Origin: Mesorhizobium loti
Lineage (GTDB): Bacteria; Pseudomonadota; Alphaproteobacteria; Rhizobiales; Rhizobiaceae
Length of the DNA: 64,000 nucleotides
Reading direction: 5' to 3'
Assembly: GCA_002356515.1 (NCBI GenBank)
Contig: AP017607.1
Coordinates: forward strand, 124,001 to 188,000
The position numbers and the translations under genes were made by a program. The notes under the pieces were generated by a model. That model was not told the DNA's origin. It ran no database searches and saw nothing but the letters and a program-made list of their open reading frames with translations. How positions within the stretch are numbered: position 1 is the first letter of the stretch; every line of letters starts with the position of its first letter. Shown here piece after piece: positions 20,634 to 37,519 of the stretch.

Positions 20634-21305
20634 TCATTCATTGTTCTGTAAATTTGCGATGGCGATAGATCGCACATCGCTGGATCGATTGTTCACACGG
20701 ACAAAGCGGTCTCTATACCCAGGAAGGCAGGTGCAATCGTACGAACGTTCCATGCCAATAAGTGCGATGATATTGTCCACACTTTCCGATGGGACTCGCA
20801 TGCGTCCCTCGCGAAGGGCGAGGTAGAGCGCTTCGATGACAAGTTGATCGCCGAGGACGGCAATTGCCGTCGGATGATGGAAAAGGTCTAACGACCAGCC
20901 AACAGTTCGCGTGTTCATAAGGGCGCTGGCGCGCCGTCGCCCCCTCCGTTCGTCGATAACGGGCAAAAAATTTCTAGCCTCAGCGATGGCGATCGTCGCG
21001 GCTTCGCCGTCGTCGAGGGAGGGCGAGGTGGACGTGAGCTCATGAAAAATTTCATACTCCGCGTCGGTCATAGTGGCGAGCGTCACGATTCCACCTGTCA
21101 CGAGGCCATGCAGAAAGAGATGCTCCCCGTTCCGGCGGCTCGTCTCGTGCTCCAGTTCTCCAGCTACGATCTCCGGCACGACGACATCGTTAGGAATGGC
21201 CGAGAGGATGCGCTCGCCACATTTGCAAGCGTGAAGGTTGATCAGAACACTCGTGTCGAGAACCAGCGGATCCGCGATATTAATCAGGGAGCTTGAGCAA
21301 CTCAT
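20634..21305 (-). CDS. PIN-domain protein (putative ribonuclease)
   Basis: 223 residues. PIN-fold markers are LVLDTSVLINLHACKCGERI at the N-terminus (first acidic residue D), a Glu in VPEIVAGELEHET, and the C-terminal acidic centre SLDDGEAATIAIAEARNFLP with VIDERRGRRRA. PIN proteins are Mg-dependent ribonucleases and often toxins. It is larger than VapC (about 130 residues) because of a C-terminal extension (GWSLDLFHHPTAIAVLGDQL onward). I chose the ATG at 21305, which has GAGG upstream; the start overlaps the end of the XRE-ImmA/IrrE gene by 26 nt, implying coupling and a toxin-regulator relation. Confidence 0.82.
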   Translation of the reverse strand: MSCSSSLINIADPLVLDTSVLINLHACKCGERILSAIPNDVVVPEIVAGELEHETSRRNGEHLFLHGLVTGGIVTLATMTDAEYEIFHELTSTSPSLDDGEAATIAIAEARNFLPVIDERRGRRRASALMNTRTVGWSLDLFHHPTAIAVLGDQLVIEALYLALREGRMRVPSESVDNIIALIGMERSYDCTCLPGYRDRFVRVNNRSSDVRSIAIANLQNNE

Positions 21306-22470
21306 CCGTGCCTCTTTCCTCAAGCTCGATCTGGTCGATAATACCGCGAAGCTCCACTCTGCCCACCTTCAGAAGCTCCGCCAATTGTCCTTCTGACATC
21401 AGCTCACGTTTCCAGGCGGCATGCGCCATCAGGCTCAGGCGGTGGGAAATGGTTCGGTCCGCGTCGCTCTTCGCCGAATCGCGCCGATCGGCCATTTCGC
21501 CCATAACTTCTCTGACATGGTCATCGGTGATGCCTCCGTTGTTTTCGAACCATGCCCAGGTACCCTTCTTGGCCAGGCCTAGTTCCTCGAGCCGAAGCCC
21601 GCATGCTTGGCGCGAGATATTATATTGCTGGGCGAGGAGAATGATCAGGCGCCGGGTAGTTTTGCCGGTGATCTCCTTCAGTTGGCGGAAGCTTTCTGAG
21701 AAGCTCTCGGCTGGCGTCAGGAATGCACGGCCAAAGGCGTTGGCGTAGCGTTCATCGCGCGAGAGGAATTTCTCGTCGTCTTCCAGCACTTCGGGAGTTT
21801 GGCGGGTACCATAGAAGTGGCCGACCTCATGCGCCGCCGACTGGATGCGCCTCGGCAATGGATGATTGGCGTTGAGAAGAATGCAGGCGCCGACGCTCTC
21901 ATCGTGGCTAAAGATGCCGGCAACCTTTGAACTGGAGGAGAGACGGCGCTGATACAACCGGATGCCGAGACCCAGTTCAATGACCGAGAAGATGTCGGCA
22001 ATCGGTCCCGGGCCAAGGCCCAGCCAGTCACGCAATTCCTTGGCATGCTTTTCGGCGATAGCCACAACTTCGCCCTCGTTGATTCCGCGCTCTGGGGGGT
22101 AATTTCGCCGCCGCTGGATTCCGAGGATGTTCTCCATTTCAACATCGGCCTTGATCAGGTCGTTGAATAACTTAACGGCCTCAACCGTGTGCGCGTCCTC
22201 GGTCTCGCGCAGCTTGCGGAAGCGCGGCATCAAATCGGTATGCACTGCCTCGCGGCGGAGAAGGGCATTAACCGACACGCCGTAACGGCGGGCGAGCATC
22301 TGGATTTCCTGGATACGCACACGGCGCACACCCTTCTCAATGGATACGAGGGTGGGGCGGGACATGCCGATGACCTCGGCGGCGTCATCCTGGCGGATGT
22401 CTGCGTTCTTCCGTGCTATCCGCAGGCGGCGTCCTATCTCCTGTGCGCTCAGCTCATTCAGATCGGCCAT
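21280..22470 (-). CDS. XRE regulator fused to ImmA/IrrE metallopeptidase
   Basis: 396 residues. The N-terminal helix-turn-helix is IGRRLRIARKNADIRQDDAA then EVIGMSRPTLVSIEKGVRRV (residues 11-50). The central domain has the metallopeptidase motif HEVGH (QSAAHEVGHFYGTRQTPEVL) and a downstream Glu in the FLSRDERYANAFGRAFLTP segment, which are the zinc ligands of ImmA/IrrE peptidases. In ICEBs1 and Deinococcus such enzymes cleave a repressor to release a response. Gene overlap links it to the HExxH/Cys-cluster gene upstream and the PIN gene downstream. It may be an antitoxin for the PIN protein or a sensor. Confidence 0.87.
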   Translation of the reverse strand: MADLNELSAQEIGRRLRIARKNADIRQDDAAEVIGMSRPTLVSIEKGVRRVRIQEIQMLARRYGVSVNALLRREAVHTDLMPRFRKLRETEDAHTVEAVKLFNDLIKADVEMENILGIQRRRNYPPERGINEGEVVAIAEKHAKELRDWLGLGPGPIADIFSVIELGLGIRLYQRRLSSSSKVAGIFSHDESVGACILLNANHPLPRRIQSAAHEVGHFYGTRQTPEVLEDDEKFLSRDERYANAFGRAFLTPAESFSESFRQLKEITGKTTRRLIILLAQQYNISRQACGLRLEELGLAKKGTWAWFENNGGITDDHVREVMGEMADRRDSAKSDADRTISHRLSLMAHAAWKRELMSEGQLAELLKVGRVELRGIIDQIELEERGTDELLKLPD

Positions 22471-23689
22471 AGCGCCCTCCATCCATCCAGCTCTTCAAAA
22501 ACCCTTGATCTCCTTGTGCGGATAGAAATACCCGCCATTCCGCGGCATGCGTCACCAACATCGTCCTTAGTTTCGTCAGAGTTTCCTCGTAGGTTGCCTC
22601 CGTCGCGGCCGCGATTTGCGAGGCGTGAACGCGAAGGGCGTCGTCCGGCAGATCGGCCATTTCCGCAAGGTGCTGCAGGTGCCGCGCGCCGACGCTTCCG
22701 TACTCCACCATGATGTCCCGATCAGCCTTTTGGGGTATGACCGACAAAGCGTTGGACGCATGAGAAGCGGCAAGGTTGGACACGACGTAGGTACCAGACG
22801 CTTCGTTGACGCCAGCGGCATGCAGGCTGAGGCGCCTCAGCAAGCAGGCAGCGCACAGGCCACACTGCTTCCTGCCGCCAACATTGACGATCCGGCGCGT
22901 TTGCCAGCAAGAATGGGTATTCGTCAGATGCTGTTCAGACTTTCCGACTATGCCCAAAAATGCGCGCAACGTCTGGCCTTTCGTCGACCATAGGCGTGGC
23001 TGATCAAAACGGACCCGGTAGTCCAGCACTGCCTTGGTGAATCGCTCCATTTTCCGGAAGAACGTCGGATGGTTGCGATAGTCGGCGTAGATGTTGTGCA
23101 GCGGAAGCAGCGCCATCAGCGTGTTGCCATGGGCGATACGGTACGAATGACCGACGTTCTCAAAATGCTGGTTCTGCCTAAGCTCGGATGATCGATTTGG
23201 GCTGTGCGCAAAGAATTTGTAGAACTCGATGTCCAGCGCATTGTTGACGGCAATGTTCGCTTCCGCGAGCGCCTCGGGCGAGGGCGCCGTGCCATGGCGT
23301 AGCGCATCATCAGCCCATCGCTTTAATGATTTCTTCGGCCCAATTTCCGCGATCGCCTTTTGAAGGTTTTCGAGACTGCTTGAAAATTGTGCTGGGTAGC
23401 AGAGGCTGAAAATAAGGCCAGCGGTCGAGCCTACATGCTGCCACCAGTGGATAGTCTCGTGGATGTAGGTCGAGTAGGCTTGGATGAGGTCTGCAGGGTC
23501 GTGACTCCCAAAGTCGCCTGAGGCGAGGGCGTCGACCAACTCATGAACACGCGGGCTCAAGCGCAGCACGAATTGTTTGGTGCTATAGAGACCATGAGCT
23601 TCCAAGGTCGCCGCGAACGTCGTGGGCGCCATCAGGATGCCTCCGCTCGGTTCGAGCAAATCATGTTTGAGGTCGTTGAAAACGATCAT
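22454..23689 (-). CDS. Unknown protein with HExxH motif and QueC-like Cys cluster
   Basis: 411 residues from ATG 23689, chosen because AAAGG lies about ten bases upstream. Two features stand out. Near residue 80 is AYSTYIHETIHWWQHVGSTA, an HExxH zinc-peptidase-like helix. Near residues 290-330 is SCWQTRR followed by RKQCGLCAACLLRRLSLHAA, which has the form of the zinc-binding C-terminus of 7-cyano-7-deazaguanine synthases (QueC/QatC-like). No QueC P-loop-type ATP pyrophosphatase motif is visible, so it is not a full QueC. I cannot name the family. It overlaps the XRE-ImmA/IrrE start, so it belongs to the same operon. Confidence 0.7.
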   Translation of the reverse strand: MIVFNDLKHDLLEPSGGILMAPTTFAATLEAHGLYSTKQFVLRLSPRVHELVDALASGDFGSHDPADLIQAYSTYIHETIHWWQHVGSTAGLIFSLCYPAQFSSSLENLQKAIAEIGPKKSLKRWADDALRHGTAPSPEALAEANIAVNNALDIEFYKFFAHSPNRSSELRQNQHFENVGHSYRIAHGNTLMALLPLHNIYADYRNHPTFFRKMERFTKAVLDYRVRFDQPRLWSTKGQTLRAFLGIVGKSEQHLTNTHSCWQTRRIVNVGGRKQCGLCAACLLRRLSLHAAGVNEASGTYVVSNLAASHASNALSVIPQKADRDIMVEYGSVGARHLQHLAEMADLPDDALRVHASQIAAATEATYEETLTKLRTMLVTHAAEWRVFLSAQGDQGFLKSWMDGGRYGRSE

Positions 23690-23872
23690 ATTGCGGCCTT
23701 TGTGGTTGCGCGTACAATTGAGGCGTGATTTGACCTCTCGTACTGTCGCCGACGGTATGTCGTCTCGCCGCCGGTACTCTGCGCGATCTGCTATAAAGTT
23801 GACATTCGCCCCCCCATGACATAGATGTCCTCTCGGAGGCTTTGTGCGCGGAAACGTGGGCATTGCCTTTTT

Positions 23873-26330: not shown

Positions 26331-26681
26331 ATGGTTCGACATCGCACACACAGCATCGATTTCAAATGTCAGGTCGTGCAGGACTATCTTGCCGGCGAGA
26401 CGCTTCATGACTTGGCCAGGCGGCACGATCTGTCGCGCAATCTGATCCGCATCTGGATCCAGAAGTTCGAGGCCGGAGCATTCGACGACGAAGCCGCTGC
26501 GGCCGACACGATCCAGACTTACGAAGCCAGGATCGCCGCTCTGGAGCGGCTCGTCGGAAGGCAGGCTTTGGAGATCGAGTTTCTAAAGGGGGCTCTGAAG
26601 CACGGACCGCGGCCGAGAAGCGCGACCACATCCGTGATCACCGGCCCCATGGCATCTCCGTCGCAGAAGGATGCCGTCTGA
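26331..26681 (+). CDS. IS3-family transposase OrfA
   Basis: 116 residues. It has an N-terminal helix-turn-helix ([20 protein letters not shown], then [20 protein letters not shown]) and a leucine-zipper-like segment ([20 protein letters not shown]), the standard OrfA layout for terminal repeat binding and multimerisation. The last 20 or so residues look unnatural, while the orfB frame remains open upstream of the orfB ATG and reads [20 protein letters not shown], so the active enzyme is probably an OrfAB fusion made by a -1 frameshift near 26585. Confidence 0.9.
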
Positions 26682-27478
26682 TGGGGATCGCGCGCTCGAC
26701 CTTCTATGACCGTCCGGCCGTGAGCTTCGACGACACCGCCCTCGTCGAACGAATGATGGCGATCTCCGACAGCTTCGAGGCCTATGGCTATCGCCGCATG
26801 CAGGCCGCGTTGCGCCAGCAGGGCATCGTCGTCAACCACAAGAAGCTGCGACGCCTGATGCGCGAGCATGGCCTCCAGCCCCGCCGGCGCCGTCGTTACG
26901 TCGCCACCACCAATGGCGATCACGACCTGCCGATCTTCCCGAACCTGGCGAGAGAGATCATCCCCGGCGGTCCCGACCAGCTCTGGGTCGCCGACATCAC
27001 CTATGTCGCGATCCCGGCCGGGTTCGTCTACGTCGCCGTCATCCTCGACGCCTGGTCACGCAAGGTGGTGGGCTATGCGATCGCCAGGTCGATCGACGTG
27101 CGGCTCACGCTGGCGGCGCTGCAATCCGCCATCGAGAAGAGGAGACCGCCTCCGGGCTGCATCCATCACACGGACAGGGGTTCGCAATACGCGGCCGGGC
27201 GCTATCGCGAGCTGCTCGCGCAGCACGGCTTCGTCGGCTCGATGGGTCGCCGGGGCAATCCCTACGACAACGCCAAGGCGGAGAGCTTCATGAAGACGCT
27301 GAAGGTCGAGGCGGTTTATCCGATGGCCTACGAGGGCTTCGCGGACGTCGCCGTCGACCTTCCGCGTTTCATCGATCACGTATACAACGAGCGTCGGCTA
27401 CACTCGGCGCTCGGTTATCTGAGCCCGCAGCAGTTTGAGGATCAACACACCCGGCACCCTGTCAAAACCGCCGCCTGA
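26681..27478 (+). CDS. IS3-family transposase OrfB (DDE)
   Basis: 265 residues. The rve integrase core has the first Asp in [20 protein letters not shown], the second in [20 protein letters not shown], and the Glu in [20 protein letters not shown], followed by [20 protein letters not shown], the signature end of IS3-type OrfB. All catalytic residues are present. The ATG at 26681 overlaps the orfA stop by one base (TGATG). Confidence 0.94.
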
Positions 27479-27515: not shown

Positions 27516-28454
27516 TCAACTTAGTTCCAGCTTCGCTAAGAATTCCTCCCACTCACGCTTAGACATTGAGGTGCCAAGTTGCTCTACGTGTTCCCCCGCA
27601 AGCATGCGGCGAAGTGCCTTTAGGGCCTCCCCGGAAAATGTCGCCGCTTCCAGTCGATGCTCGCGAAACGCTTCGTAGGTCAGCGGGACCCATTTTTTCA
27701 GGATGTCCAAAATTACCTCCGCATACACCCTGATCTCATACTGCGCGTGGGGATCGGCGCGAAGCCGGAGAAAATTCATGAGGTTGTGCAGATCGGTCTT
27801 CCAGTACCACTGGGTATAGAAGTTGAGCGACAGGTTCATGCGAGCAAGCTCTCGTGCTAGCCCTTCTTGGTCATCACGAAGCTGCTGGCCGCCTTCATCA
27901 TGATTTAGCAGATCGAGATAGTGATCGTAGTTGCGTTGCGCATCGTCTGTGAGAATTCGCAGTACTCGATCCGCCTCAGCAGCTCCCACGACCTCTCCGC
28001 GACCTTGGCGATTTTGCACCGATTGTGCTGACAGATGTTCCGGGGCGGGAATGTAGAATTCGCGATCGAGAATAGAATAGCGGGCCGAATATTCATTAAC
28101 GCTCGCCATCCGATGCCGGATCCACTGGCGTGCAACGAAGATCGGCAGCTTTACGTGGAACTTGATTTCCGCCATTTCGAACGGCGTGGTGTGCCAGTGG
28201 CGGAGCAGATAGTGGATTAAGCCCCGATCTTCAGAGATTTTTTTCGTGCCCCGGCCGTAGGATACACGGGCCGCCTGCACGACGGCACCGTCGTCGCCCA
28301 TATAGTCGACGACACGTACAAACCCGTGGTCGAGAACCGGAACGGCTTGATAGAGAATTTCCTCAAGCCCCTCGGATACAACGCGGCGTGTCGCCCTCGA
28401 GGCAGCGCGCGCCTCCTTGATCTCGAGTGACTGTTCTTCCGTAAGATTGGTCAT
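27516..28454 (-). CDS. thyX: FAD-dependent thymidylate synthase ThyX
   Basis: 312 residues. The ThyX signature [15 protein letters not shown] (RHRxxSxNxxSxR type) is intact near residues 118-132, with [20 protein letters not shown] before it and YKTDLHN-type residues ([20 protein letters not shown]) later. It makes dTMP from dUMP with methylenetetrahydrofolate and NADPH through FAD. Most alphaproteobacteria carry a chromosomal thymidylate synthase, so this plasmid copy may be extra. It lies 77 nt downstream of the three-gene operon on the same strand and right beside the IS3 element, so its association with the defence-like genes could be functional or only positional. Confidence 0.94.
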
Positions 28455-28531: not shown

Positions 28532-29560
28532 TCATTGGCTCCAGAAAGAGGCGGGATCGAAGCGGTCGTTGATGCGATAGAAATAGATATTCCCAGAAGC
28601 CTTCACCTCATTCACGACATAGGTCGTTGGAGTCCGGCAGACGACCTGAATCTGGTCATCGGCGAGCGCCGCAATCGCGAATGCGACAGCATGAGTCTTG
28701 GGACCGATCGCAAAACAAGTAGTGCCGGCTGAACGGTTTTGAAGGACGCTGAGGGCGACAGCGGCAATTTCGTGAAGCTCGAATTGCTCCTGCCTGACGC
28801 CAGGAAAAGCCGCGAGTTGCTGAAGCGCCGGCCGCTCCCGGTCGATCACCGACGAAGGCAATCTGCGATGCCCTTCGGTAATGTGATAAAGGACCAAGCC
28901 GTTTGGCTCAAAACGGTCGACGATGGGACTCGCCTGCGTGAGCTCGGCACCAACGGAAATATAGAGATTTCTCCGATCCGGTACGTAGTCTTCCGACTCC
29001 AGATAGGGAATTTGCGACGTCGTCCATTCGCCTTCTGATATCAGCCCAAGCGGTTTGCCAGCGACATCGATCTGTGCGGCCCGCATCTCGTACTTCTCAG
29101 CCTCCGCATAGACAAGGTCGATAGAGGTGAACAGTTCACGACGGAATCCCAATCCGAGCAAAAAAAGCAAATAGCGTTTTGGAATGCACGTCATGTCCAT
29201 CAGCACACGGAGAGCGTGGCCCTTCTTGCGCGCGACCCCGAAAATCTCCTGCTCTAGCTTCTCAGCGTTGTCTGTAAATTGTGCAGACCGTTCCAGATCT
29301 AATATCCGGCAGTCGGCCATCGCGCCCTCAATCGTGGCGCGATTGCCGCTCTTGCGGCTCTCCATTTCGGTATCAGACGATGCGAAATGGATAATCAAAC
29401 TCTCGTCGCTGCGCCCCGAAAGAAGCGGGCTACAGGCGTGGCAGCGGCTCTCCCAGCTGACAGCCGCGATGACGAGATCGTATTGTTCGCGCAGGATACT
29501 GTGATCTTTGAGGATCGTCTGCGATATGCTGAGCGTCCCGATCGCTATCTCGTCAATCAT
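28532..29560 (-). CDS. Unknown Rossmann-like protein, third gene of MPE-ATPase operon
   Basis: 342 residues. I do not recognise a named family. The N-terminal half alternates strands and helices: LREQYDLVIAAVSWESRCHA (residues 22-41), SLIIHFASSDTE, and ALRVLMDMTCIPKRYLLFLL (residues 113-132), a pattern like nucleotide-sensing Rossmann folds such as CARF-type domains with their D-x-T motif, though this is only a resemblance. The C-terminal half has an alpha/beta segment around GTTCFAIGPKTHAVAFAIAA. No signal or membrane segment. It overlaps the ATPase gene by eight bases and so is translated with it. Confidence 0.72.
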   Translation of the reverse strand: MIDEIAIGTLSISQTILKDHSILREQYDLVIAAVSWESRCHACSPLLSGRSDESLIIHFASSDTEMESRKSGNRATIEGAMADCRILDLERSAQFTDNAEKLEQEIFGVARKKGHALRVLMDMTCIPKRYLLFLLGLGFRRELFTSIDLVYAEAEKYEMRAAQIDVAGKPLGLISEGEWTTSQIPYLESEDYVPDRRNLYISVGAELTQASPIVDRFEPNGLVLYHITEGHRRLPSSVIDRERPALQQLAAFPGVRQEQFELHEIAAVALSVLQNRSAGTTCFAIGPKTHAVAFAIAALADDQIQVVCRTPTTYVVNEVKASGNIYFYRINDRFDPASFWSQ

Positions 29561-31652
29561 CGAAACTCGGAACCTCGTGAGCCAGGGGGAGCGTCAGCTG
29601 TGAGCTCGAATTCGGTCGTCGCGCGAACTGCTTTGCCCAATCATCCGCGTCGACCTCTGGTGAGCCGATGCAGATCTGGTAGAGAATGTCCTCGGTCAGT
29701 TTCACAGGTTCGTAAGCACCCCGGTATGAGAACATAAAGCGAGGCGCGAAGCGTCGATGCAGTCGGAAACCAGAGATCTTCGGAGCCTCATCGTCCTCTC
29801 CGGACTTCGCCCCCCGCTTTGATGTCGTAGCGCGTAAATACCCTGACAATTCGGCGCGATGGATGATCTGGTTAATAAGCTCAATCTGGGTGGCGTTTGC
29901 CGGGTAGCTACGAGCTGGGTCAATGAAGAAAAGGCCGCGCTCGGTCGTTGCCAGCGACGAAGGATCTTCGAAATTCGCTTGGAGATGGTGCGTTAGGCGC
30001 CCGAGAACCGTGATGAATCGCATCACTGCTTCAGCATTGGAGTCGGTAAGAATTCCGATGCCGTCATAGAAGGCTTCGCTAGAGGCATAAATGCCATCAG
30101 TCTGAGTCTTGGCAGCAATCTTCGTCCTCGAGCGAGCAAACTTCTCCAGGACTTCTTCGGCCGAAAGCGAGCTGCGGTCCTTCGAAAAGCGGTCGAAAAT
30201 CTCGGCCATGATCTCCAAGAAGTCGCGGATCGAGCCGTCGGCCAGCGACGTGATCACACCCACCCCAGACATCGGCAATCTGCGGAAGCCGAGCCGGTTT
30301 GCAATATGGAGCATTGCACCGACGCTCTTGCGCCGTATCCAGGCCTGCTGGCTTTTGGCTTTCATCGCCGTTGCGTTCTTTGCGATCCTACTGAAATCCT
30401 CAGGTCGCGAGATCGGCGAGAAATTCTCCTTTTGACCAGTCCAGTGCCAAAGCACATAGGTCTGGTAGTAAGGGAGAGCTCCGGCTGGAGTACGATCAAG
30501 CCCATATTGACCGAGATCCAGGCCATGAAGGAACTCGGCAGCTTCGCGAAGCTGCCGTGCAAGCGGGCTAGTTGAGCGCGATATCATCGTTTCGATGATG
30601 TCGTTCACTACAATCGTCCCGAGCCGGCCTTTGAGCGAGAAATAGCGCTCGACCTCAGAACCCGTCACCAGGGGGCGTCGATCTTGCCTCAAAGAGAAAT
30701 ACACCCGCAGACTGGCGACCGCCTCGCAGAGCGCCTGGAATTCTGGCCGGTCTCTGTCGTCGAGCGATACGACACGGCGATCAGCGTCGGTCAAAGGCTG
30801 TTCATCGATGAAAGTCTCGCCTGCCTCTACCGCCTCGCCCACCGAGCAAATGACCCAAGAGGTTGGAAATCTGCTTTTGCGCACGAGCGTATTCACCGAT
30901 TTTCTCTGAAGCGGGCTCATCACCTCGCAATCGTCGAGGCAAAACTTAAAGCCGAGCCTCTGGCCGCAGGTAAGCTTGCTATGGGCCATGGATTGCGACA
31001 GACGCTCGATCACGAAGGAAAGAAGTTCATGCGGCTCGCGGATCGGAAGCTTTTCGACCAGACTCTTGACGTAACCGCGGCCGCAGGCTTCGTTCATTCG
31101 CCTGACCATATTGCGAAGCGCTCGCGAAAGGTCGACAAACGTTTTTGGGGGCTGCTCTGTGAAGGACAAGATTTCTGGAAACTCCGCCGTCGTGTCTGCG
31201 ACAATTGAAAGCTCGCTGCCAGCCGACAGCGTCAAGACGTCCTCGACGCGTAAGGTGTGGGCTGCAGAAAGTGCCTTCTCGACGGCAATTAATTCGAGCG
31301 CGAGGGAATAGAACCGGAAGAACTCGTAATCAGGACGCGGCGAGTCCGGAAAGATCTCGGACCAGCGCATATAGCCCATCGAGCCCGAAACATGATCCGG
31401 CAGGCGTATGTAGACGCCAATGTGGTTAAAGTCCGAGATGGTCTTCTGGATTCGGAGTGAAGGATTGGAGAACAGATCCTCCCAGCAAATGCTCCGAAGA
31501 AGCGTAGTCTTGCCGCTGCCCCGGCTTCCATAAACGAACACCGATTTGTCGGCGGCCAAATGTGCCGCGGTCGGCGTAAACCATATTAGGGGAGAGCCGG
31601 AGCTCTCGTGCTCCCACCGCGTCGGTCGGAAAGGGTTCACGACGGCTGCCAC
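29553..31652 (-). CDS. P-loop ATPase (ORC/CDC6- or STAND-like), second gene of operon
   Basis: 699 residues. Walker A is VFVYGSRGSGKTTLLRSICW near residues 37-56; Walker B is probably LGFKFCLDDCEVMSPLQRKS near 255, with an LDDCE core in place of the usual DDxD/E. A sensor-like strand SWVICSVGEAVEAGETF follows, and the C-terminal 350 residues are helical (winged-helix-like stretches such as RRKSVGAMLHIANRLGFRRL). There is no membrane segment. Large single ATPases of this type serve as sensors or motors in many bacterial conflict systems. It begins at GTG 31652, directly abutting the metallophosphoesterase stop (TAG-GTG), and overlaps the next gene, so the three are one operon. Confidence 0.82.
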   Translation of the reverse strand: MAAVVNPFRPTRWEHESSGSPLIWFTPTAAHLAADKSVFVYGSRGSGKTTLLRSICWEDLFSNPSLRIQKTISDFNHIGVYIRLPDHVSGSMGYMRWSEIFPDSPRPDYEFFRFYSLALELIAVEKALSAAHTLRVEDVLTLSAGSELSIVADTTAEFPEILSFTEQPPKTFVDLSRALRNMVRRMNEACGRGYVKSLVEKLPIREPHELLSFVIERLSQSMAHSKLTCGQRLGFKFCLDDCEVMSPLQRKSVNTLVRKSRFPTSWVICSVGEAVEAGETFIDEQPLTDADRRVVSLDDRDRPEFQALCEAVASLRVYFSLRQDRRPLVTGSEVERYFSLKGRLGTIVVNDIIETMISRSTSPLARQLREAAEFLHGLDLGQYGLDRTPAGALPYYQTYVLWHWTGQKENFSPISRPEDFSRIAKNATAMKAKSQQAWIRRKSVGAMLHIANRLGFRRLPMSGVGVITSLADGSIRDFLEIMAEIFDRFSKDRSSLSAEEVLEKFARSRTKIAAKTQTDGIYASSEAFYDGIGILTDSNAEAVMRFITVLGRLTHHLQANFEDPSSLATTERGLFFIDPARSYPANATQIELINQIIHRAELSGYLRATTSKRGAKSGEDDEAPKISGFRLHRRFAPRFMFSYRGAYEPVKLTEDILYQICIGSPEVDADDWAKQFARRPNSSSQLTLPLAHEVPSFDD

Positions 31653-32921
31653 CTACTTCTCCGCTCTTAAAATCCAATGCGTCGGCGAAAGATCGTAGTT
31701 GTCGATCGTGATACTACTTTCAGCCTGCAACTCCTCGACGATGATCGTCAGTCGTCGTTCATCCAAGCCGTTCGGCTCGTTCAGAAAATGTTTTGTCAGC
31801 TCTGGCCAATACATCTGCCCCACTTCCAGCACCTTTCCATAGATAATACCGGTGTTGCGATCGGAGCTGCGTCTGCGCCCAAGGGCGATCGATATGGCGG
31901 TTTCCCGCTTCAAGATCCCTGATTTGTCGACCCGGTAGGGAGTGATGTGACAGGCAAGCGGAGCCGTGTTCTCGCCGAAAAGAATATCGACCAAATTAAA
32001 GCCCTTCGGAATGTCAGGGGCACTGATCGAGACAACGGGGAAGCCGCCCGGAAGCTGCAAAACCTCAACTGGATCCTCATGGATATGGCCGTGCAAATAT
32101 ATCGCCGGCCGCCCGAGTTCTCCGAGAGCGCCACGCAGCGCACCGCCGTTGACGAGTTCGGTATAGGGCGCAAGACGCGGCCGCCTTTGCGGAAGCAAAT
32201 TGTGGTGGGCGACGAGCACCGGAATGGCGCCCCCCGATAGGGCTTCCATTTTCGTTACAACACTCTCGATCGTTTCTTCGGAGATCGCAGGAGTGTCCAA
32301 CTGGCGATCGTAGTAAGCCCGCATCGCGGCGTCCGAATCAGGCCCGCTCATGACAGTTTTAATTGCCTCGGCAATCTGGAAGCGAAACTCGGGCGGAATG
32401 TAGCTTTCTTCGCCGCAGCCCCAGCAACTGTTGAGAAGAAAAAGCTCTATGCGAGCATTCTCTTTTTCGAGCGATCGATGCATCGCCTTGTTGATCGGCA
32501 AGGCGGGCAGCCCCGCCGCGATTAAGGCCTCCACCAGTGGCGTGAACTTGGTGCTAATGCCTGGTTTAAGGGCAAGAGTGCGGTTGATGTCGTGGTTTCC
32601 GGGAACAATCCCGACCGGGATATCGCGAAAAAGGCCATTTGACCCGATCTGCAGCGCACTGGCGATGTAGGTTGCGCAGGCCGCGTAGCCGTCAAGCTTG
32701 CCATAGTCGGTCAGGTCGCCCATGAAAAGGACGGCATCGATATCTTGTTCCTTTATGATCTCAAAGATGCGCCGGAAGACGGTCTTTATCGGGCTGCGCG
32801 ATATGATGTTCTTCAGGTTCAGCGGAAACGTTGTGTCCTTATCGTCCACGAAGGCCTTATTGCCAGCGTTGGAAACTAGGTGGATGTCGCCGATCTGCAG
32901 AAGCCGAATTTTTGGTAGCAC
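31653..32921 (-). CDS. Calcineurin-like metallophosphoesterase, first gene of operon
   Basis: 422 residues with all five metallophosphoesterase blocks: RLLQIGDIHLVSNAGNKAFV (D-x-H), DAVLFMGDLTDYGK (GD), PVGIVPGNHDINRTL (GNHD), IPVLVAHHNLLPQRRPRL (H) and AIYLHGHIHEDP (GHxH). Such enzymes hydrolyse phosphodiesters, including nucleic acids or cyclic nucleotides. The C-terminal 120 residues form an extra domain without recognisable family. The GTG start at 32921 is preceded by GGAGGGGG. An ATPase and an unknown protein are translationally linked downstream, which makes this the probable effector or signal-hydrolysing part of a multi-protein system. Confidence 0.85.
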   Translation of the reverse strand: MLPKIRLLQIGDIHLVSNAGNKAFVDDKDTTFPLNLKNIISRSPIKTVFRRIFEIIKEQDIDAVLFMGDLTDYGKLDGYAACATYIASALQIGSNGLFRDIPVGIVPGNHDINRTLALKPGISTKFTPLVEALIAAGLPALPINKAMHRSLEKENARIELFLLNSCWGCGEESYIPPEFRFQIAEAIKTVMSGPDSDAAMRAYYDRQLDTPAISEETIESVVTKMEALSGGAIPVLVAHHNLLPQRRPRLAPYTELVNGGALRGALGELGRPAIYLHGHIHEDPVEVLQLPGGFPVVSISAPDIPKGFNLVDILFGENTAPLACHITPYRVDKSGILKRETAISIALGRRRSSDRNTGIIYGKVLEVGQMYWPELTKHFLNEPNGLDERRLTIIVEELQAESSITIDNYDLSPTHWILRAEK

Positions 32922-33269
32922 TACATGTCCCCCTCCCGAAGACTGCAGTATCGTTCTTGTCGGTGCATTGCAACGTCATGGCGGGAACTTGAAACTCTCT
33001 CAGTGCAAGAGGCGAACGACGTTGCGGTTTGGGGTAAGGCCCTAGCAATACCGCCTTCCCCTGAGAATCGAGCCTCCGCGAACGGATCAACGAGAACTCG
33101 TGGAAACTTGCCGCCTATCACGTTCTGGAAGGTCTATCCGAGAGGCTCGGTGGACACCGCTCCCGGACCAAAATGCCCGCTTTTTCACAAGATCCGTTGC
33201 CGTCCATCGGCCCAGCTCATTTCTTGACGGTTGGTCCTCGAGCTCCTGCGACTATCGCCCGACTTCCGC
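32922..33269 (-). other. Intergenic region, promoter of the MPE operon expected
   Basis: About 350 bp between the end of the E1-like gene and the start of the metallophosphoesterase gene, all on the minus strand. No supported gene. It contains the GGAGGGGG ribosome-binding site at about 32929-32936; I cannot identify a reliable promoter by eye. Confidence 0.4.
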
Positions 33270-34613
33270 CTAGCCTACGAACACAACATAGCGCGAGCCC
33301 GCGACTGCGACTTTGTGCACGCTTTTGTCACGACCCTCGCATAGGCAGCCAGTACGATGCGGAATCGGCGTGCCGATCAACAGCGGCTGGCCCTTGAGGC
33401 CAAGCATTACTCGTTCGGCCGAGAACGGGTAACCGGGAGCGTTTAGCTTGAGAACCTCTGCTGCGGTCATTAGACCCGCGGCGAAGGAGAGGAAGGGCAG
33501 AGCCGCGTCGGTGCGCTTTTCCTCGACCGTCGTCTGGGACGCGGTGGACCCGTCTGTGGCGCACGTAGTTGGAGCGTACTTCTCGTCGGGCGGGAACACG
33601 CAGAGCGAACACGCTTTCGCTCCGGGTACATGCCGCATCAAGGTCGCCTGCCAATTCCGACCCGTGGTGGCGTAGAACTGGATCGGAGGGAACCCCATCT
33701 CGATATGGTAGCGCACGTTGAACTCGTTGGCGGCCGAGATCAGAATGTCCGTCGAACCGGCCTCACGGAGACTCCAGAGCGCGGACTCATGCAAGGCGAC
33801 CGCGTCGACCGCTACTTCCTCGACACCGGCTCGGCGCAGAAAGGCGGCGACGGCGTCGACTTTGGCCATGTCGACCTTAGCATGGGCATCTGTGAAGATG
33901 GGTGAGCGGGTGATGTTATGGATTCCGATCCCGTCGTGATCGATGAGGCTTGCGCGGAAGTCCCTCGTCGCAAGCGCCAGAAAGTAGTTGGCGGCGGACC
34001 CCACCGAGCCGAGCCCTGCAGTCATGACGTGGCCTAGCGAGACCCCGACTGGGGAGAATTCCACCCGCTTGGGGACATCGGTCCAATCCCAAGCGTTGCA
34101 GGCGAAGGACTCGGTCATGGCGCCGAAGCGGGTGCGGAACAGATGCGCGGCACCCAATACCACGGCCAGCGCCGCGCCTATTCCGACATCCGATTCGATC
34201 GGGGATAGCGGCGACGGCCCCGGACCAATGTAGGCGTTCCACCCAGAGCCGTGGATGACAGTGTTGTGGCCGTCGGGTCCGAGATGGAAGCGAAAATCGC
34301 CTGCGGTCACTTGGTGTGTGCCGTAGCTGCCGAACGGGTCGGCGGCTCTCATTCCATCAAGGGCATGCTCGACAAGCGAACGGCCGGCCCATGGAAGGCG
34401 CGGGTGGATAGGTATGTCCGGGAAGCCCACCTGCACCGAGGGTGACAGCCGTCCCAACAGGTTGCAGGCGACGAGTGCTGCCACTTGCCCGTCGTAACTT
34501 GCGAGGTAATCGGGCGACGCGGTGATCGCGACGACCTGCGTTTGGTCGAGTGGCGACGTGCCGTAGCGAAGCATGCGATCGTTCAATCGGTCGTAAAACT
34601 GTTGCTGGTCCAT
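33270..34613 (-). CDS. E1-like (ThiF-fold) enzyme of ubiquitin-like operon
   Basis: 447 residues. The C-terminal two-thirds is a ThiF/E1 adenylation fold: HVMTAGLGSVGSAANYFLAL (nucleotide-binding GxGxxG), ASLIDHDGIGIHNITRSPIF, and the downstream Cys segment GAKACSLCVFPPDEKYAPTT with further Cys residues that could include a catalytic or zinc-binding Cys. The N-terminal 190 residues are a non-standard domain. E1 enzymes adenylate and thioesterify the C-terminus of a ubiquitin-like protein. I chose ATG 34613; an upstream start at 34682 is in frame. It overlaps the JAB gene by 31 nt and is the last gene of the Ubl-E2-JAB-E1 operon. Confidence 0.86.
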   Translation of the reverse strand: MDQQQFYDRLNDRMLRYGTSPLDQTQVVAITASPDYLASYDGQVAALVACNLLGRLSPSVQVGFPDIPIHPRLPWAGRSLVEHALDGMRAADPFGSYGTHQVTAGDFRFHLGPDGHNTVIHGSGWNAYIGPGPSPLSPIESDVGIGAALAVVLGAAHLFRTRFGAMTESFACNAWDWTDVPKRVEFSPVGVSLGHVMTAGLGSVGSAANYFLALATRDFRASLIDHDGIGIHNITRSPIFTDAHAKVDMAKVDAVAAFLRRAGVEEVAVDAVALHESALWSLREAGSTDILISAANEFNVRYHIEMGFPPIQFYATTGRNWQATLMRHVPGAKACSLCVFPPDEKYAPTTCATDGSTASQTTVEEKRTDAALPFLSFAAGLMTAAEVLKLNAPGYPFSAERVMLGLKGQPLLIGTPIPHRTGCLCEGRDKSVHKVAVAGSRYVVFVG

Positions 34614-35134
34614 GGCCCGCCTGCCGGAATGATAATGATGTCGTCGTCCGATAGCTCGATCCAGCCGTGCGGCTTCTGCCACAGATAGGCGGCGGCGCCA
34701 GCCAGCGAGGGTAGAAACCGTCCATAATCAGGCAGCACGAGTGAGGCGTATCCCGGGTAACGGATCTTGGCGCCTTCGACGTCACCATCGCTATGGAAGG
34801 CTTGGCCCGGATGGGTGTGGACCTGGGCTACCACCTGCAACTCGAACCGCGCCGCCGCCTGCATGCAGGTCACCATGGCGCGAGTCGGAACATGAAAACT
34901 GCCCGCCGTCGTCCGCGCCTCGGGCGCGAAGACCGCTACGGCAAGAGTGACGGCACCGTCGGTCCGGCCGAGCAGATAGGCGATCCCCTCATGCCGCTGC
35001 TGTTGAGACCGGACCAGCGCGGCCATCAAGTCTTGGAGCGCATCCGTGGTCACCAGCAACCTGGCCGGCTGTGGCGAAATTGCAATGCACTTTGGCTTTC
35101 GGCCGAGAACACGCTTGAGCCAACCGGGGATCAT
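34583..35134 (-). CDS. JAB/MPN (JAMM) peptidase of ubiquitin-like operon
   Basis: 183 residues. The JAMM zinc motif is complete: VVAQVHTHPGQAFHSDGD gives H-x-H-P plus S and D, with a Glu upstream in QQRHEGIAYLLGRTDGAV. Such enzymes deconjugate or process ubiquitin-like proteins. I chose ATG 35134, which overlaps the E2 stop as ATGA; an upstream frame to 35251 runs inside the E2 gene and has no similarity. Its likely substrates are the C-terminal extension of the Ubl and its conjugates. Confidence 0.9.
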   Translation of the reverse strand: MIPGWLKRVLGRKPKCIAISPQPARLLVTTDALQDLMAALVRSQQQRHEGIAYLLGRTDGAVTLAVAVFAPEARTTAGSFHVPTRAMVTCMQAAARFELQVVAQVHTHPGQAFHSDGDVEGAKIRYPGYASLVLPDYGRFLPSLAGAAAYLWQKPHGWIELSDDDIIIIPAGGPWTSNSFTTD

Positions 35135-35586
35135 GCTGCCAGCCTGCCTTCGTAGCTCTTCATCAGCTCGCAGGCGATACGCAGGGCCATGGCACCCAAG
35201 GTGCGGCACGCCCTCGTGTATGCGTTGTTCTGCCAGGCGCCGATCTGCCAATCTGAATGCGGTCCGCGGGAATCGACAGTTTTATAGGCGAGGCGATTCC
35301 ATGGCGCGCAGATCACGCCGTTACCGTGCAGGAAATTGCCGCCCCGCGGAGTATCCGGCCGATTGTCGATCCTGCCGGTCGCCGGGTTGAACCAGTGCCA
35401 GGCAGGAGGTGTGGCAGGATAGCCGTCACACCTCACGCGCAGGTGGTAGATCAAGCCGTCCTTGGCAGGGAGCCCGAGGACGAAGGTCAGGTCATCGATC
35501 TGCTCGATCGACCAGCCCATAAGGCTGGCATTCTCCTTAAGCGCGTCGAGTTCAACCTTCACCAGCAGGGCAGCGGGAGTGCTCAT
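35131..35586 (-). CDS. E2-like (UBC-fold) protein of ubiquitin-like operon
   Basis: 151 residues. The fold is suggested by FVLGLPAKDGLIYHLRVRCD, then GYPATPPAWHWFNPATGRID (a P-P-x-x-x-F type element typical of UBC folds) and FLHGNGVICAPWNRLAYKTV, where the Cys after GV sits at the position of the E2 catalytic Cys. A helical C-terminus follows (ACRTLGAMALRIACELMKSY). E2 proteins receive the Ubl from E1 as a thioester. The start is five bases after the Ubl stop and the stop overlaps the JAB start, so it is tightly coupled to both. Confidence 0.85.
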   Translation of the reverse strand: MSTPAALLVKVELDALKENASLMGWSIEQIDDLTFVLGLPAKDGLIYHLRVRCDGYPATPPAWHWFNPATGRIDNRPDTPRGGNFLHGNGVICAPWNRLAYKTVDSRGPHSDWQIGAWQNNAYTRACRTLGAMALRIACELMKSYEGRLAA

Positions 35587-35591
35587 GATGA

Positions 35592-35888
35592 TCAGACCCC
35601 GGAACCAGTGGCGACCAGCGTCAACTTGTACCTGCCCTTCCTGAGCCCGAAGCTCACCAGCGGACGGTTGACAGGCTCGAGGTGGACCTCCCCGTAGTAG
35701 AGCTCGAAGGCGTCGCCTTCGGCGAGGTCGCGGTCCTTCACCACTTCCTTGATCACTTTCTCCGCCTTTTCTTTCTTGTCGAACGTGCCGCGGAATACGC
35801 CGTTCGGCGTCGCGATCTCGAGCACGACATCGTCGTCGTTATGATCCTTCCCCGAATTCTCGCCGGGGCTTTTGTTGTCCTGAGACAT
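35592..35888 (-). CDS. Ubiquitin-like protein, first gene of conjugation operon
   Basis: 98 residues from ATG 35888 with GGAG seven bases upstream. Residues 1-20 are a charged flexible tail; residues 21-95 fit a beta-grasp: VVLEIATPNGVFRGTFDKKE, KAEKVIKEVVKDRDLAEGDA, FELYYGEVHLEPVNRPLVSF and GLRKGRYKLTLVAT. The C-terminus is ATGSGV, so a Gly is available after removal of one to three residues, which fits processing by the neighbouring JAB peptidase. It starts the order Ubl-E2-JAB-E1, as in the antiphage Bil/Bub conjugation systems (order and membership, not tested). Upstream lies a divergent higBA-type operon. Confidence 0.84.
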   Translation of the reverse strand: MSQDNKSPGENSGKDHNDDDVVLEIATPNGVFRGTFDKKEKAEKVIKEVVKDRDLAEGDAFELYYGEVHLEPVNRPLVSFGLRKGRYKLTLVATGSGV

Positions 35889-35970
35889 TCGCCAACTCCA
35901 TTGTTGTCGCCCCGAATCTGCGCAGGGGAGGGCGGAGCAAACCCCTTGGCCCCAGCGTCGTTGCATGTTA

Positions 35971-36047
35971 GTCCCACTTCCGGGAACACTAATTCCGATA
36001 TGGCATAGCGTGAGGTCATGTGCAATAGTTGTCCCACATTTGGGAAC
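35971..36047. promoter_or_regulatory. Two operator-like palindromes in the divergent promoter region
   Basis: GTCCCACTTCCGGGAAC (35971-35987) and GTCCCACATTTGGGAAC (36031-36047) are 17-bp copies differing at three central positions, with the arms CCCA/GGGA in inverted orientation, 60 bp start to start. They lie between the ATGs of the minus-strand Ubl operon (35888) and the plus-strand HigB gene (36075). Each is a plausible site for the HigA helix-turn-helix, and the spacing would let one regulator control both directions. The regulator assignment is inferred. Confidence 0.65.
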
Positions 36048-36074
36048 CATTTTGTATTGGAGCCGCGGTTTGCC

Positions 36075-36374
36075 ATGAAGCTGATAGGGATATCGAGATT
36101 GCGCGAACTTGCGCGTCGTACCCGTGGCGACCTTGATGGAGCCGTACCGGCGCTCGTTGCCGAACTTGAGGCCGGGTCATGGCGTTCAATGGCTGAAATC
36201 GGGGAATTCTATCCGTCAGCCCTTATCAGAGGCATCAAGGTCCGAATCCCACTCAACGCTGACTATCGGGTCGATCTCGTCGCTGACTGCGAGGCGCAGA
36301 TAGTTCTCATCGAATATGCGGGCGCGACTACTGGGGCACGCGCCACGACTAAGGCAGGGAGCAAGGTGACATGA
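36075..36374 (+). CDS. higB: HigB/RelE-like toxin
   Basis: 99 residues starting MKLIGISRLRELARRTRGDL, then WRSMAEIGEFYPSALIRGIK and VRIPLNADYRVDLVADCEAQ, which follow the HigB pattern (helix, FP segment, then a YR strand). HigB toxins are ribosome-dependent mRNA interferases. The final 15 residues are Ala/Thr-rich and flexible. ATG 36075 has GGAG about 13 bases upstream and lies 28 bp after the second palindrome; the antitoxin starts at the overlapping ATGA. Confidence 0.78.
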   Translation: MKLIGISRLRELARRTRGDLDGAVPALVAELEAGSWRSMAEIGEFYPSALIRGIKVRIPLNADYRVDLVADCEAQIVLIEYAGATTGARATTKAGSKVT

Positions 36375-37519
36375 CAGTTCGACCTATACGCACTGAGGAA
36401 GACTACCAATCGGCACTCAAGCGTGCCACTGCGCTGTTTGGGCACAAAAGCCCGAAAGACCGCGACGAGCTCGAAGTGCTGCAGGCCGTCATCGAACGCT
36501 GGGAACGATCCCGGCATCCCATTGAGGCACCGACGCCTGTCCAAGCGATCAAGTTTCGCATGGTGCAGGAGGGATTGTCACAACGCGATCTGATTCCATA
36601 CCTTGGAAGCAAATCGCGCGTATCCGAGATACTCAACGGTCAGCGACAGCCCACGGTCGATCAGATCAGGGCACTACATCAGCATCTAGGCATTCCCGTC
36701 ACTTCGCTGATTGGCTCGTCGAAGCACGAGCCTGCGGCCGGCTCGTCGAGTACCTCGATAGCAGCCGAAGGAAAGCTTCGTACGCTTGGCGTGATGAGAA
36801 CGAAGGAGAATCTCGCCGGCTTCTTATCGCGTTCGAAGGCCTCTGCTCCGGCAATCGCCATGTTGCGCAAGACCAGGACTGAGCGCACCAACGCTAAGAC
36901 GGACATGGCGGCACTCGAAGCATGGTGCGCAGCCGTATTAGTTCGTGCAGAAAAGATAAATGTCAAAAAAACTAAGATAGGCGATCCAGAGAAAGCGGCG
37001 CGGCAACTGGCACAGCTGAGCCTGTTGGCTGACTGGCAGGATCAGCTCGTCGCTGAGCTACATCGTATGGGAATAATATTGGTCATATTGGAGCACCTGC
37101 CGGGAACATTTCTCGACGGGGCAGCGATGTGCCGCAGCGATGGTGTTCCGGTGATTGCACTAACCTTGCGTCACGATCGATTGGACAATTTCTGGTTTAC
37201 GCTGTTGCATGAGTTCGCCCATGCGGTTCGTCACTTGAGCACTGATCGACAGGTTATTCTGGACGATCTGGATGTGGCGAGTTCGGAAACCATCGAAGCG
37301 GAGGCGGACTCGTTTGCACGGCACGCTCTTATCCCTCCTGCCATGTGGAAGGGGATCGACAAGGGCAGCAGCACGGAGGAGGTGTTGCAGGCGGCGCAGA
37401 AAGCTGGCGTGCATCCCGCGATTGCCGCCGGCCGCTGGCGGTTCGAACATTCGGACTATCGTCGTTTCTCCAAGCTGATTGGTCGGGGCAAGGTGAAGAT
37501 GGCTCTAATTCCGACTTAA
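36371..37519 (+). CDS. higA: HigA-type antitoxin fused to ImmA/IrrE metallopeptidase
   Basis: 382 residues. The N-terminal part is HigA-like: a helix-turn-helix with VQAIKFRMVQEGLSQRDLIP, YLGSKSRVSEILNGQRQPTV and DQIRALHQHLGIPVTSLIG (residues 57-115). The C-terminal part contains FTLLHEFAHAVRHLSTDRQV (HExxH) and an acidic helix SSETIEAEADSFARHALIPP, which are the zinc ligands of ImmA/IrrE peptidases. The antitoxin could therefore be proteolytically inactivated in response to a signal. It is longer than a plain HigA (about 100 residues). Confidence 0.87.
   Translation: MTVRPIRTEEDYQSALKRATALFGHKSPKDRDELEVLQAVIERWERSRHPIEAPTPVQAIKFRMVQEGLSQRDLIPYLGSKSRVSEILNGQRQPTVDQIRALHQHLGIPVTSLIGSSKHEPAAGSSSTSIAAEGKLRTLGVMRTKENLAGFLSRSKASAPAIAMLRKTRTERTNAKTDMAALEAWCAAVLVRAEKINVKKTKIGDPEKAARQLAQLSLLADWQDQLVAELHRMGIILVILEHLPGTFLDGAAMCRSDGVPVIALTLRHDRLDNFWFTLLHEFAHAVRHLSTDRQVILDDLDVASSETIEAEADSFARHALIPPAMWKGIDKGSSTEEVLQAAQKAGVHPAIAAGRWRFEHSDYRRFSKLIGRGKVKMALIPT

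Follow-up and report, generated by a model that had tools for sequence, protein, structure and literature searches.

A probable phage-defence operon of Mesorhizobium loti with a CARF6 protein, an ORC-CDC6-like ATPase and a putatively swappable phosphoesterase, adjoined by a thymidylate synthase gene

In a 64,000-nucleotide stretch of Mesorhizobium loti (GenBank assembly GCA_002356515.1, contig AP017607.1, positions 124,001 to 188,000 of the forward strand; hereafter, "the window"), three adjoining minus-strand genes, which we refer to as the triad, encode a predicted calcineurin-like metallophosphoesterase, an ORC-CDC6-like AAA+ ATPase and a tandem CARF-type protein of the CARF6 family, and they are followed by a fourth gene, whose product is identified by its profile match as ThyX, a flavin adenine dinucleotide (FAD)-dependent thymidylate synthase. 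The comparison of this locus with related loci suggests that the triad is probably a phage-defence operon and that the phosphoesterase is most likely its swappable effector; the partnership with ThyX is recurrent beside related systems in some rhizobia. For the locus as a whole, we lean towards an anti-phage system that is gated by a signal, targets nucleotides and has a thymidylate synthase attached to it.

Results

Organisation of the four-gene unit

The first-pass annotation of the window had placed three minus-strand genes at this locus (Table 1), and our map of open reading frames (ORFs) contains them at the same coordinates, together with the junctions that it had described: the TAG stop of the phosphoesterase gene directly abuts the GTG start of the ATPase gene, and the end of the ATPase gene (TGA) overlaps the ATG of the third gene by eight bases. 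The thyX gene, which was absent from that annotation, begins 77 bases past the stop of the third gene and is the fourth gene of the unit.

A nucleotide comparison of positions 20-46 kb of the window with eight homologous loci has delimited this unit: three of the loci (L002, L003 and L100) share with the window a single homologous block of 78-82% identity that spans all four genes, while their flanks are unrelated, with nothing else homologous within the flanks compared. In the window, the block extends from 27528-27541 to 32920-32962, i.e. its edges are located at most 25 bases from the 3' end of thyX and about 40 bases from the start of the phosphoesterase gene. The ratio of nonsynonymous to synonymous substitution rates (dN/dS) relative to the same three loci is 0.03-0.07 in all four genes, with dS of about 1-1.9, and thus the four genes constitute a conserved unit that is not due to chance. 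A closer relative, located on plasmid p_2 of Mesorhizobium huakuii (L099), is 98.5% identical to the window over 9.9 kb. The scan for promoter- and terminator-like sites is at chance level in this region, giving no more of them than shuffled sequence does. Transposase-like genes directly adjoin the end of thyX in the window; in Agrobacterium leguminum, an LmuB (Lamassu)-like protein is encoded about 3 kb downstream of the ThyX of the unit (L002:15279-17294).

Families and conserved residues of the encoded proteins

The phosphoesterase matches PF00149 with 43.1 bits (cut-off 21.5), and the five phosphoesterase blocks that had been read from its translation are present and invariant in 16 aligned sequences, that of the window included: D12, H14, G68-D69, G108-N109-H110-D111, H239-H240, H277-G278-H279 and H281. 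Its fold is near those of the cyclic-nucleotide phosphodiesterase Rv0805 and of SMPDL3A, which cleaves cGAMP; no profile named Calcineurin-CE is found among its matches in the profile library.

The ATPase is a member of PF24389 (307 bits, cut-off 27; E 3.3e-91), which it matches over the entire profile (1-571 of 571). The P-loop and the LDDCE motif, also recognised at first pass, are conserved across 25 aligned ATPases that include that of the window, with G42, R44, G45, G47, K48 and T49 nearly invariant and D240-D241-C242-E243 invariant; both the Walker A and the Walker B motif are intact. Searches with the ATPase as query against phage genomes and with the ATPase alignment in a pattern scan of IMG/VR have found no relative, and neither has a pattern scan of IMG/VR with the CARF protein.

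The third protein, which had been left without a match to any named system, is a CARF6 protein: all seven of its PADLOC matches are to CARF6 profiles (for PDLC01919: 72.9 bits, E 9.5e-21, residues 7-337), its AlphaFold2 model aligns over 235 residues with Can1, a protein with two CARF domains, and it adopts the CARF-type Rossmann fold. The CARF6 profile is also matched by all 22 of the sister third proteins that were scanned, 13 of which originate from the 20 further regions described below. Sequence searches against solved structures have given no useful match, and only three further proteins were added when the CARF alignment served as query in a second search. The profiles and the fold agree with the role of signal reader that had been suggested for this protein, and we propose that it is a nucleotide-signal sensor. 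The description of the components as unnamed, on the other hand, is superseded by their matches to PF24389, CARF6 and PF00149.

The product of the fourth gene scores 200.4 bits against TIGR02170 (cut-off 87.9), and the RHR-X7-S motif is found in 24 of 24 aligned ThyX sequences, including that of the window. Since the genome has its own ThyA (contig C1) and no second ThyX, the ThyX of the window is an accessory gene.

Conserved gene order and the exchangeable effector

The gene order seen in the window recurs in other genomes and plasmids, where homologues of the three genes occur together. A search of genome contigs with the ATPase alignment has identified 15 loci, 13 of which have the order phosphoesterase-ATPase-CARF6, including two (L006 and L014) in which the phosphoesterase gene is cut by the contig end; of the other two, L011 stops where its contig ends, and in L007 a phosphoesterase is accompanied by a short ATPase ORF, with CARF6 not found. 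By tblastn, 34 plasmid records contain the ATPase (30 are typed as conjugative), and the three genes are in order in all six plasmid loci that were read; the third gene is confirmed by profile in L099, L100, L101, L102 and L104, and by its place in the tree in L103.

The comparison has been extended with PF24389 to two overlapping genome samples, 397 from the order and 398 from the phylum, in which 20 and 14 genomes, respectively, exceed the cut-off (25 different genomes together). Twenty further regions have been examined, taken from 19 of these 25 genomes (i.e. without the window's own genome, G030, G310, G144, G186 and G771) and from G003, which was chosen for its CARF match. An effector-ATPase-CARF6 triad is present in 13 of the 20 regions: seven triads have a PRTase-CE protein (L077, L078, L082, L083, L084, L087 and L090), three an HD-CE protein (L080, L088 and L089) and three a phosphoesterase (L079, L081 and L096), so that in 10 of the 20 regions the place of the phosphoesterase is taken by PRTase-CE or HD-CE. 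Not counted as triads are L086, where DruA precedes the ATPase and CARF6, L085, where the ATPase is present and CARF6 was not found, and five weak matches (L091-L095).

The enzyme is therefore replaced beside the ATPase and CARF6, which identifies this pair as the constant core and the preceding enzyme as the variable output, an arrangement of an exchangeable effector that is a trait of nucleotide-targeting triad systems. The effector label changes four times on the ATPase tree (27 rows) and three times on the CARF tree (26 rows), against a shuffled mean of 10.1 in both; without the DruA row, the changes are three and two, respectively. Because both trees have long branches, the exact number of effector swaps is uncertain, and the position of L079 in the trees is unsure. 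The first-pass annotation had suggested that the phosphoesterase is either an effector or a remover of the signal; its replacement by PRTase-CE or HD-CE in related systems supports the former role and makes the latter less likely.

DNA methyltransferases adjoin several of the PRTase-CE and HD-CE types, as well as L079, the one phosphoesterase-type locus whose flanks were searched for them. When the ORF maps of 13 loci of the phosphoesterase type were inspected by eye, no further common gene was apparent. Four PRTase-CE triads (L083, L084, L087 and L090) have SIS/HAD-like, PfkB or NADAR-like genes in their vicinity, a set of neighbours that differs from that of the methyltransferase-linked types; the assignments of HAD in L083 and of PfkB in L084 are confirmed, the others being made by eye. 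Beside the PRTase-CE triad of L078, an HD-domain phosphohydrolase (dNTPase-like) and a dUTPase (L078:5345-7177) provide another link to nucleotide metabolism.

Recurrence of ThyX beside related systems

With the ThyX of the window as query (E up to 1e-20), a match is found in five of the 397 genomes of the order. Two of the five, one being the window's own genome, have ThyX beside triads; in the second (G303), it is found beside the HD-CE triad of L080, with a C5 methyltransferase between them. The remaining three genes are located in surroundings that are phage-like by eye (two genomes) or at a contig end (one genome).

In plasmids, ThyX is matched at E 1e-40 in 194 records, 166 of which belong to Borrelia/Borreliella. 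We have scanned with profiles the neighbourhoods of all 21 plasmid ThyX proteins that are at least 60% identical to that of the window; those below 60% identity, including the one from Bradyrhizobium quebecense H49, are outside this count. Triad genes are present in 11 of the 21 loci and comprise all three effector types: phosphoesterase (L099 and L100), PRTase-CE (L116, L124, L119, L120, L129, L130 and L131) and HD-CE (L118 and L122); in L120, L129 and L131, the ATPase is found in at least two ORFs. In three more loci (L113-L115), the pair PDC-M65A/B of PADLOC, a two-gene candidate defence system, is located directly downstream of ThyX (L114 was scanned by profile, and L113 and L115 were matched to it); neither PDC-M65 protein of L114 has a Pfam match. 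The last seven loci, four from Paracoccus and one each from Pseudorhodobacter, Acidiphilium and Acetobacter, have neither a triad nor PDC-M65. Hence, ThyX is located beside triad genes or PDC-M65 in 14 of 14 Hyphomicrobiales plasmid loci versus 0 of 7 from other orders, although the 14 are not independent events, because of shared ancestry and near copies (L116/L124 and L120/L131).

The position of ThyX relative to its partners varies. In the phosphoesterase type, it is located downstream on the same strand; in L119 and L130, it is located upstream on the same strand and overlaps the methyltransferase gene; in L118, L122 and L116/L124, it is convergent with the CARF gene, the end of which it overlaps in L118, while a small ORF lies between the two in L116/L124. 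L004 and L005 have a phosphoesterase triad and a nearby ThyX that adjoins PDC-M65A, for which reason this ThyX is not counted in the phosphoesterase unit; PDC-M65A/B are both beside ThyX in L004, as in L113, L114 and L115, and only M65A was found in L005. The resolution of the ThyX tree is partial, with stars on 8 of its 21 inner branches, and in it the partners of PDC-M65 group with those of the phosphoesterase in one starred set.

Discussion

Relation to described systems

The families Calcineurin-CE, HD-CE and PRTase-CE were reportedly defined as nucleotide-targeting effectors by Nicastro and colleagues in 2023, and that work is not known to mention ThyX. The present loci resemble the systems reported there in the alternatives for the effector slot, PRTase-CE (PF24390) and HD-CE (PF24391), and in an ATPase family with the neighbouring Pfam accession. 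The CARF6 family of PADLOC is said to stem from the work of Makarova and colleagues in 2020; the third protein and its 22 sisters share its profiles, but the CARF6 protein of the window is a stand-alone gene with an ATPase partner, and no CRISPR or cyclase gene is recognised in the operon.

DS-8 and DS-9 of DefensePredictor (PMC13092281) need metallophosphatase activity for protection, and in DS-8 this activity is coupled to a P-loop NTPase, as in the window. Unlike in the triad, however, the partner in these systems is either a HAD phosphatase or a NACHT domain that belongs to the same polypeptide; the same article lists thymidylate synthase among newly validated defence domains. Membership of the triad in DS-9 (NCBIfam NF053862, 31.4 bits versus a cut-off of 420) and DS-8 (NCBIfam, 19.5 bits versus 790) has been rejected, as has membership in DS41 (far below the cut-off) and MADS (mad8 with 23 bits only). 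With regard to CBASS, SMODS (PF18144) is matched nowhere in the genome, as against matches in 3 of 14 control genomes (other CD-NTase families were not searched); with regard to type III CRISPR-Cas, the Cas10 profile Csm1 (TIGR02578) has no match in the genome either (Cmr2 was not searched). Clover (PMC12265719) has a nucleotide-depleting effector and thymidine nucleotides as a cue, its dGTPase responding to viral enzymes that raise thymidine triphosphate (dTTP); by contrast with the window, Clover combines an HD dGTPase as effector with a nucleotidyltransferase, and the abstract and opening of the article describe no CARF protein, ORC ATPase or ThyX.

Among the best-ranked matches listed in searches of the open-licence literature (in one of them, the best 20 of 46), ThyX and CARF occur together only in PMC7824862, where, in the passages concerned, ThyX is phage ThyX and CARF appears only in a cited title. 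A recurrent partnership of ThyX with defence-like systems has thus apparently gone undescribed so far. As the parts are in described families, the locus is best read as a variation on a theme that is already described, in which the partnership with ThyX is the new element.

Proposed mechanism and alternative explanations

We propose that the CARF6 protein, as its fold and family suggest, binds a nucleotide ligand whose level increases, or which is newly formed, in infection, and that it would then switch its partner, the ORC-CDC6-like ATPase, which, by analogy with its family, may assemble, probably on DNA. The pair, to which the role of a constant core is assigned by comparative genomics, would activate the product of the first gene of the operon, in the window the phosphoesterase, and this enzyme may hydrolyse nucleotides or a nucleotide-derived molecule and so halt phage replication, the role of effector being suggested by its replacement with PRTase-CE or HD-CE. 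ThyX would make thymidine monophosphate (dTMP) by a route that is independent of the host ThyA, and it may either re-supply dTTP for the survival of the cell or keep the level of thymidine nucleotides that the sensor reads; the association is observed, and the role is our proposal. Since neither SMODS nor Csm1 has a match in the genome (Cmr2 and other cyclases were not searched), a cyclic oligonucleotide is no more plausible as the signal than a change that the phage brings about in a nucleotide, ordinary or modified. According to PMC7824862, a thymidylate synthase of either type is present in most jumbo phages, and thus a defence that monitors the thymidine nucleotides, or spares them, would have a plausible target.

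Several observations weigh against this interpretation. No signal-making enzyme is recognised in the operon, and the genome has no SMODS or Csm1 match (other cyclase families were not searched); Foldseek alone places CARF chains at E of about 1e-3 only, and in its ranking they are preceded by C-terminal domains of transporters and by KaiC with low TM values. In L099, an IS66 insertion disrupts thyX and leaves the triad intact. None of the phosphoesterase-type loci beyond the nearest clade (the window, L002, L003, L099 and L100) has a ThyX of its own within the flanks examined, and ThyX is therefore not required. Lastly, the ThyX loci are related, with near copies among them, and the count of 14 of 14 stands without a baseline from other plasmid genes.

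The phosphoesterase could alternatively be an off-switch that degrades the CARF6 ligand in the manner of ring nucleases or SMPDL3A, leaving the ATPase and CARF6 as the acting part. Its structural neighbours, Rv0805 and SMPDL3A, are in accordance with such a role, as is the prediction that some calcineurin-like enzymes of phages act against the nucleotide signals of immunity (PMC7824862); we nevertheless consider it unlikely, given that PRTase-CE or HD-CE takes the place of the phosphoesterase beside the ATPase and CARF6 in related systems, that the 13 ORF maps, by eye, hold no further common gene and hence no other evident effector, and that DS-8 and DS-9 need their metallophosphatase for protection. 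Still less probable, in our judgement, is that the phosphoesterase is a DNA nuclease similar to SbcD/Mre11, within an ATPase-guided restriction system that does not deplete nucleotides. The ORC/Cdc6-like ATPase and the metabolic regulator might also point to plasmid maintenance or the control of DNA replication, instead of defence; the presence of the ATPase in plasmid records that are mostly typed as conjugative would fit, as would repABC or repBC at a distance of a few kb in L104, L120 and L131, but copies also occur on contigs of 1.5-2.1 Mb (L010 and L016), defence genes are among the neighbours, and no partition or replication partner is common, by eye, to the 13 phosphoesterase-type maps, which makes this explanation very improbable.

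The question of ThyX is more evenly balanced. It may be a hitch-hiker, i.e. a plasmid metabolic gene that uses the same hotspots without any functional tie to the triads, and this is a serious possibility that falls somewhat short of an even chance: besides its absence, within the flanks examined, from the phosphoesterase-type loci beyond the nearest clade, ThyX is interrupted in L099 and split in L131, seven of the 21 plasmid loci have it without a triad or PDC-M65, and it is common in phages (PMC7824862). Yet, rare as it is in the order, two of its five genomic occurrences are beside triads of different effector types; it is close to the genes of the systems in three arrangements (the methyltransferase overlap of L119/L130, the overlap with the CARF end in L118 and the 77 bases of the window); the limits of the homologous block fall near the ends of thyX and of the phosphoesterase gene, and its dN/dS is about 0.07. 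We put forward, tentatively and as a possibility rather than a likelihood, that several defence systems of rhizobial plasmids that target nucleotides have ThyX as a fourth part, functional and exchangeable, with the phosphoesterase, PRTase-CE and HD-CE triads and PDC-M65 having each acquired it, and that it would restore dTMP once the effector has emptied the pool, or set the level of thymidine nucleotides that is read by CARF6 and the ATPase.

Defence-like neighbourhood of the window

The defence-like context that had been suggested for the triad is borne out by matches of neighbouring genes to known defence genes (Table 1). The pair similar to PD-Lambda-2 probably corresponds to one of the two toxin-antitoxin-like loci of the first-pass annotation. 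The operon for ubiquitin-like conjugation, which is part of the stretch shared with L099, also precedes the triad there, and the QueC/QatC-like gene with its HTH/IrrE neighbour is a possible further defence locus.

Table 1. Coordinates in the window of the four-gene unit and of the neighbouring features.
Feature	Position	Strand	Details
Calcineurin-like metallophosphoesterase, proposed nucleotide-hydrolysing effector	31653-32921	-	422 amino acids; GTG start
ORC-CDC6-like AAA+ ATPase, proposed oligomerising/DNA-contacting switch	29553-31652	-	699 amino acids; GTG start
Tandem CARF-type protein (CARF6), proposed nucleotide-signal sensor	28532-29560	-	342 amino acids; ATG start
ThyX, FAD-dependent thymidylate synthase (by profile)	27516-28454	-	312 amino acids; co-directional with the triad
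Transposase-like genes	26331-27478	+	26681-27478: integrase core with HTH_21, preceded by a short ORF
Ubiquitin-like conjugation operon	33270-36050	-	BilB/BilC/BilD-like matches; protein at 35592-36050 without match
PD-Lambda-2 A/B-like pair	36018-37519	+	B: E 2.8e-109; A: weaker, E 6.8e-6
QueC/QatC-like protein beside a protein with helix-turn-helix (HTH) and IrrE peptidase	22454-23863 and 21280-22482	- (both)	

Significance

The third protein of the triad now has a family, a fold and a likely role, and related sensor-ATPase cores are seen to be combined with three or more different enzymes that are predicted to act on nucleotides. If ThyX is indeed a part of these systems, a bacterial immune system would contain its own enzyme for recovery or calibration, and the way in which cells survive their own nucleotide-depleting defences would become testable.

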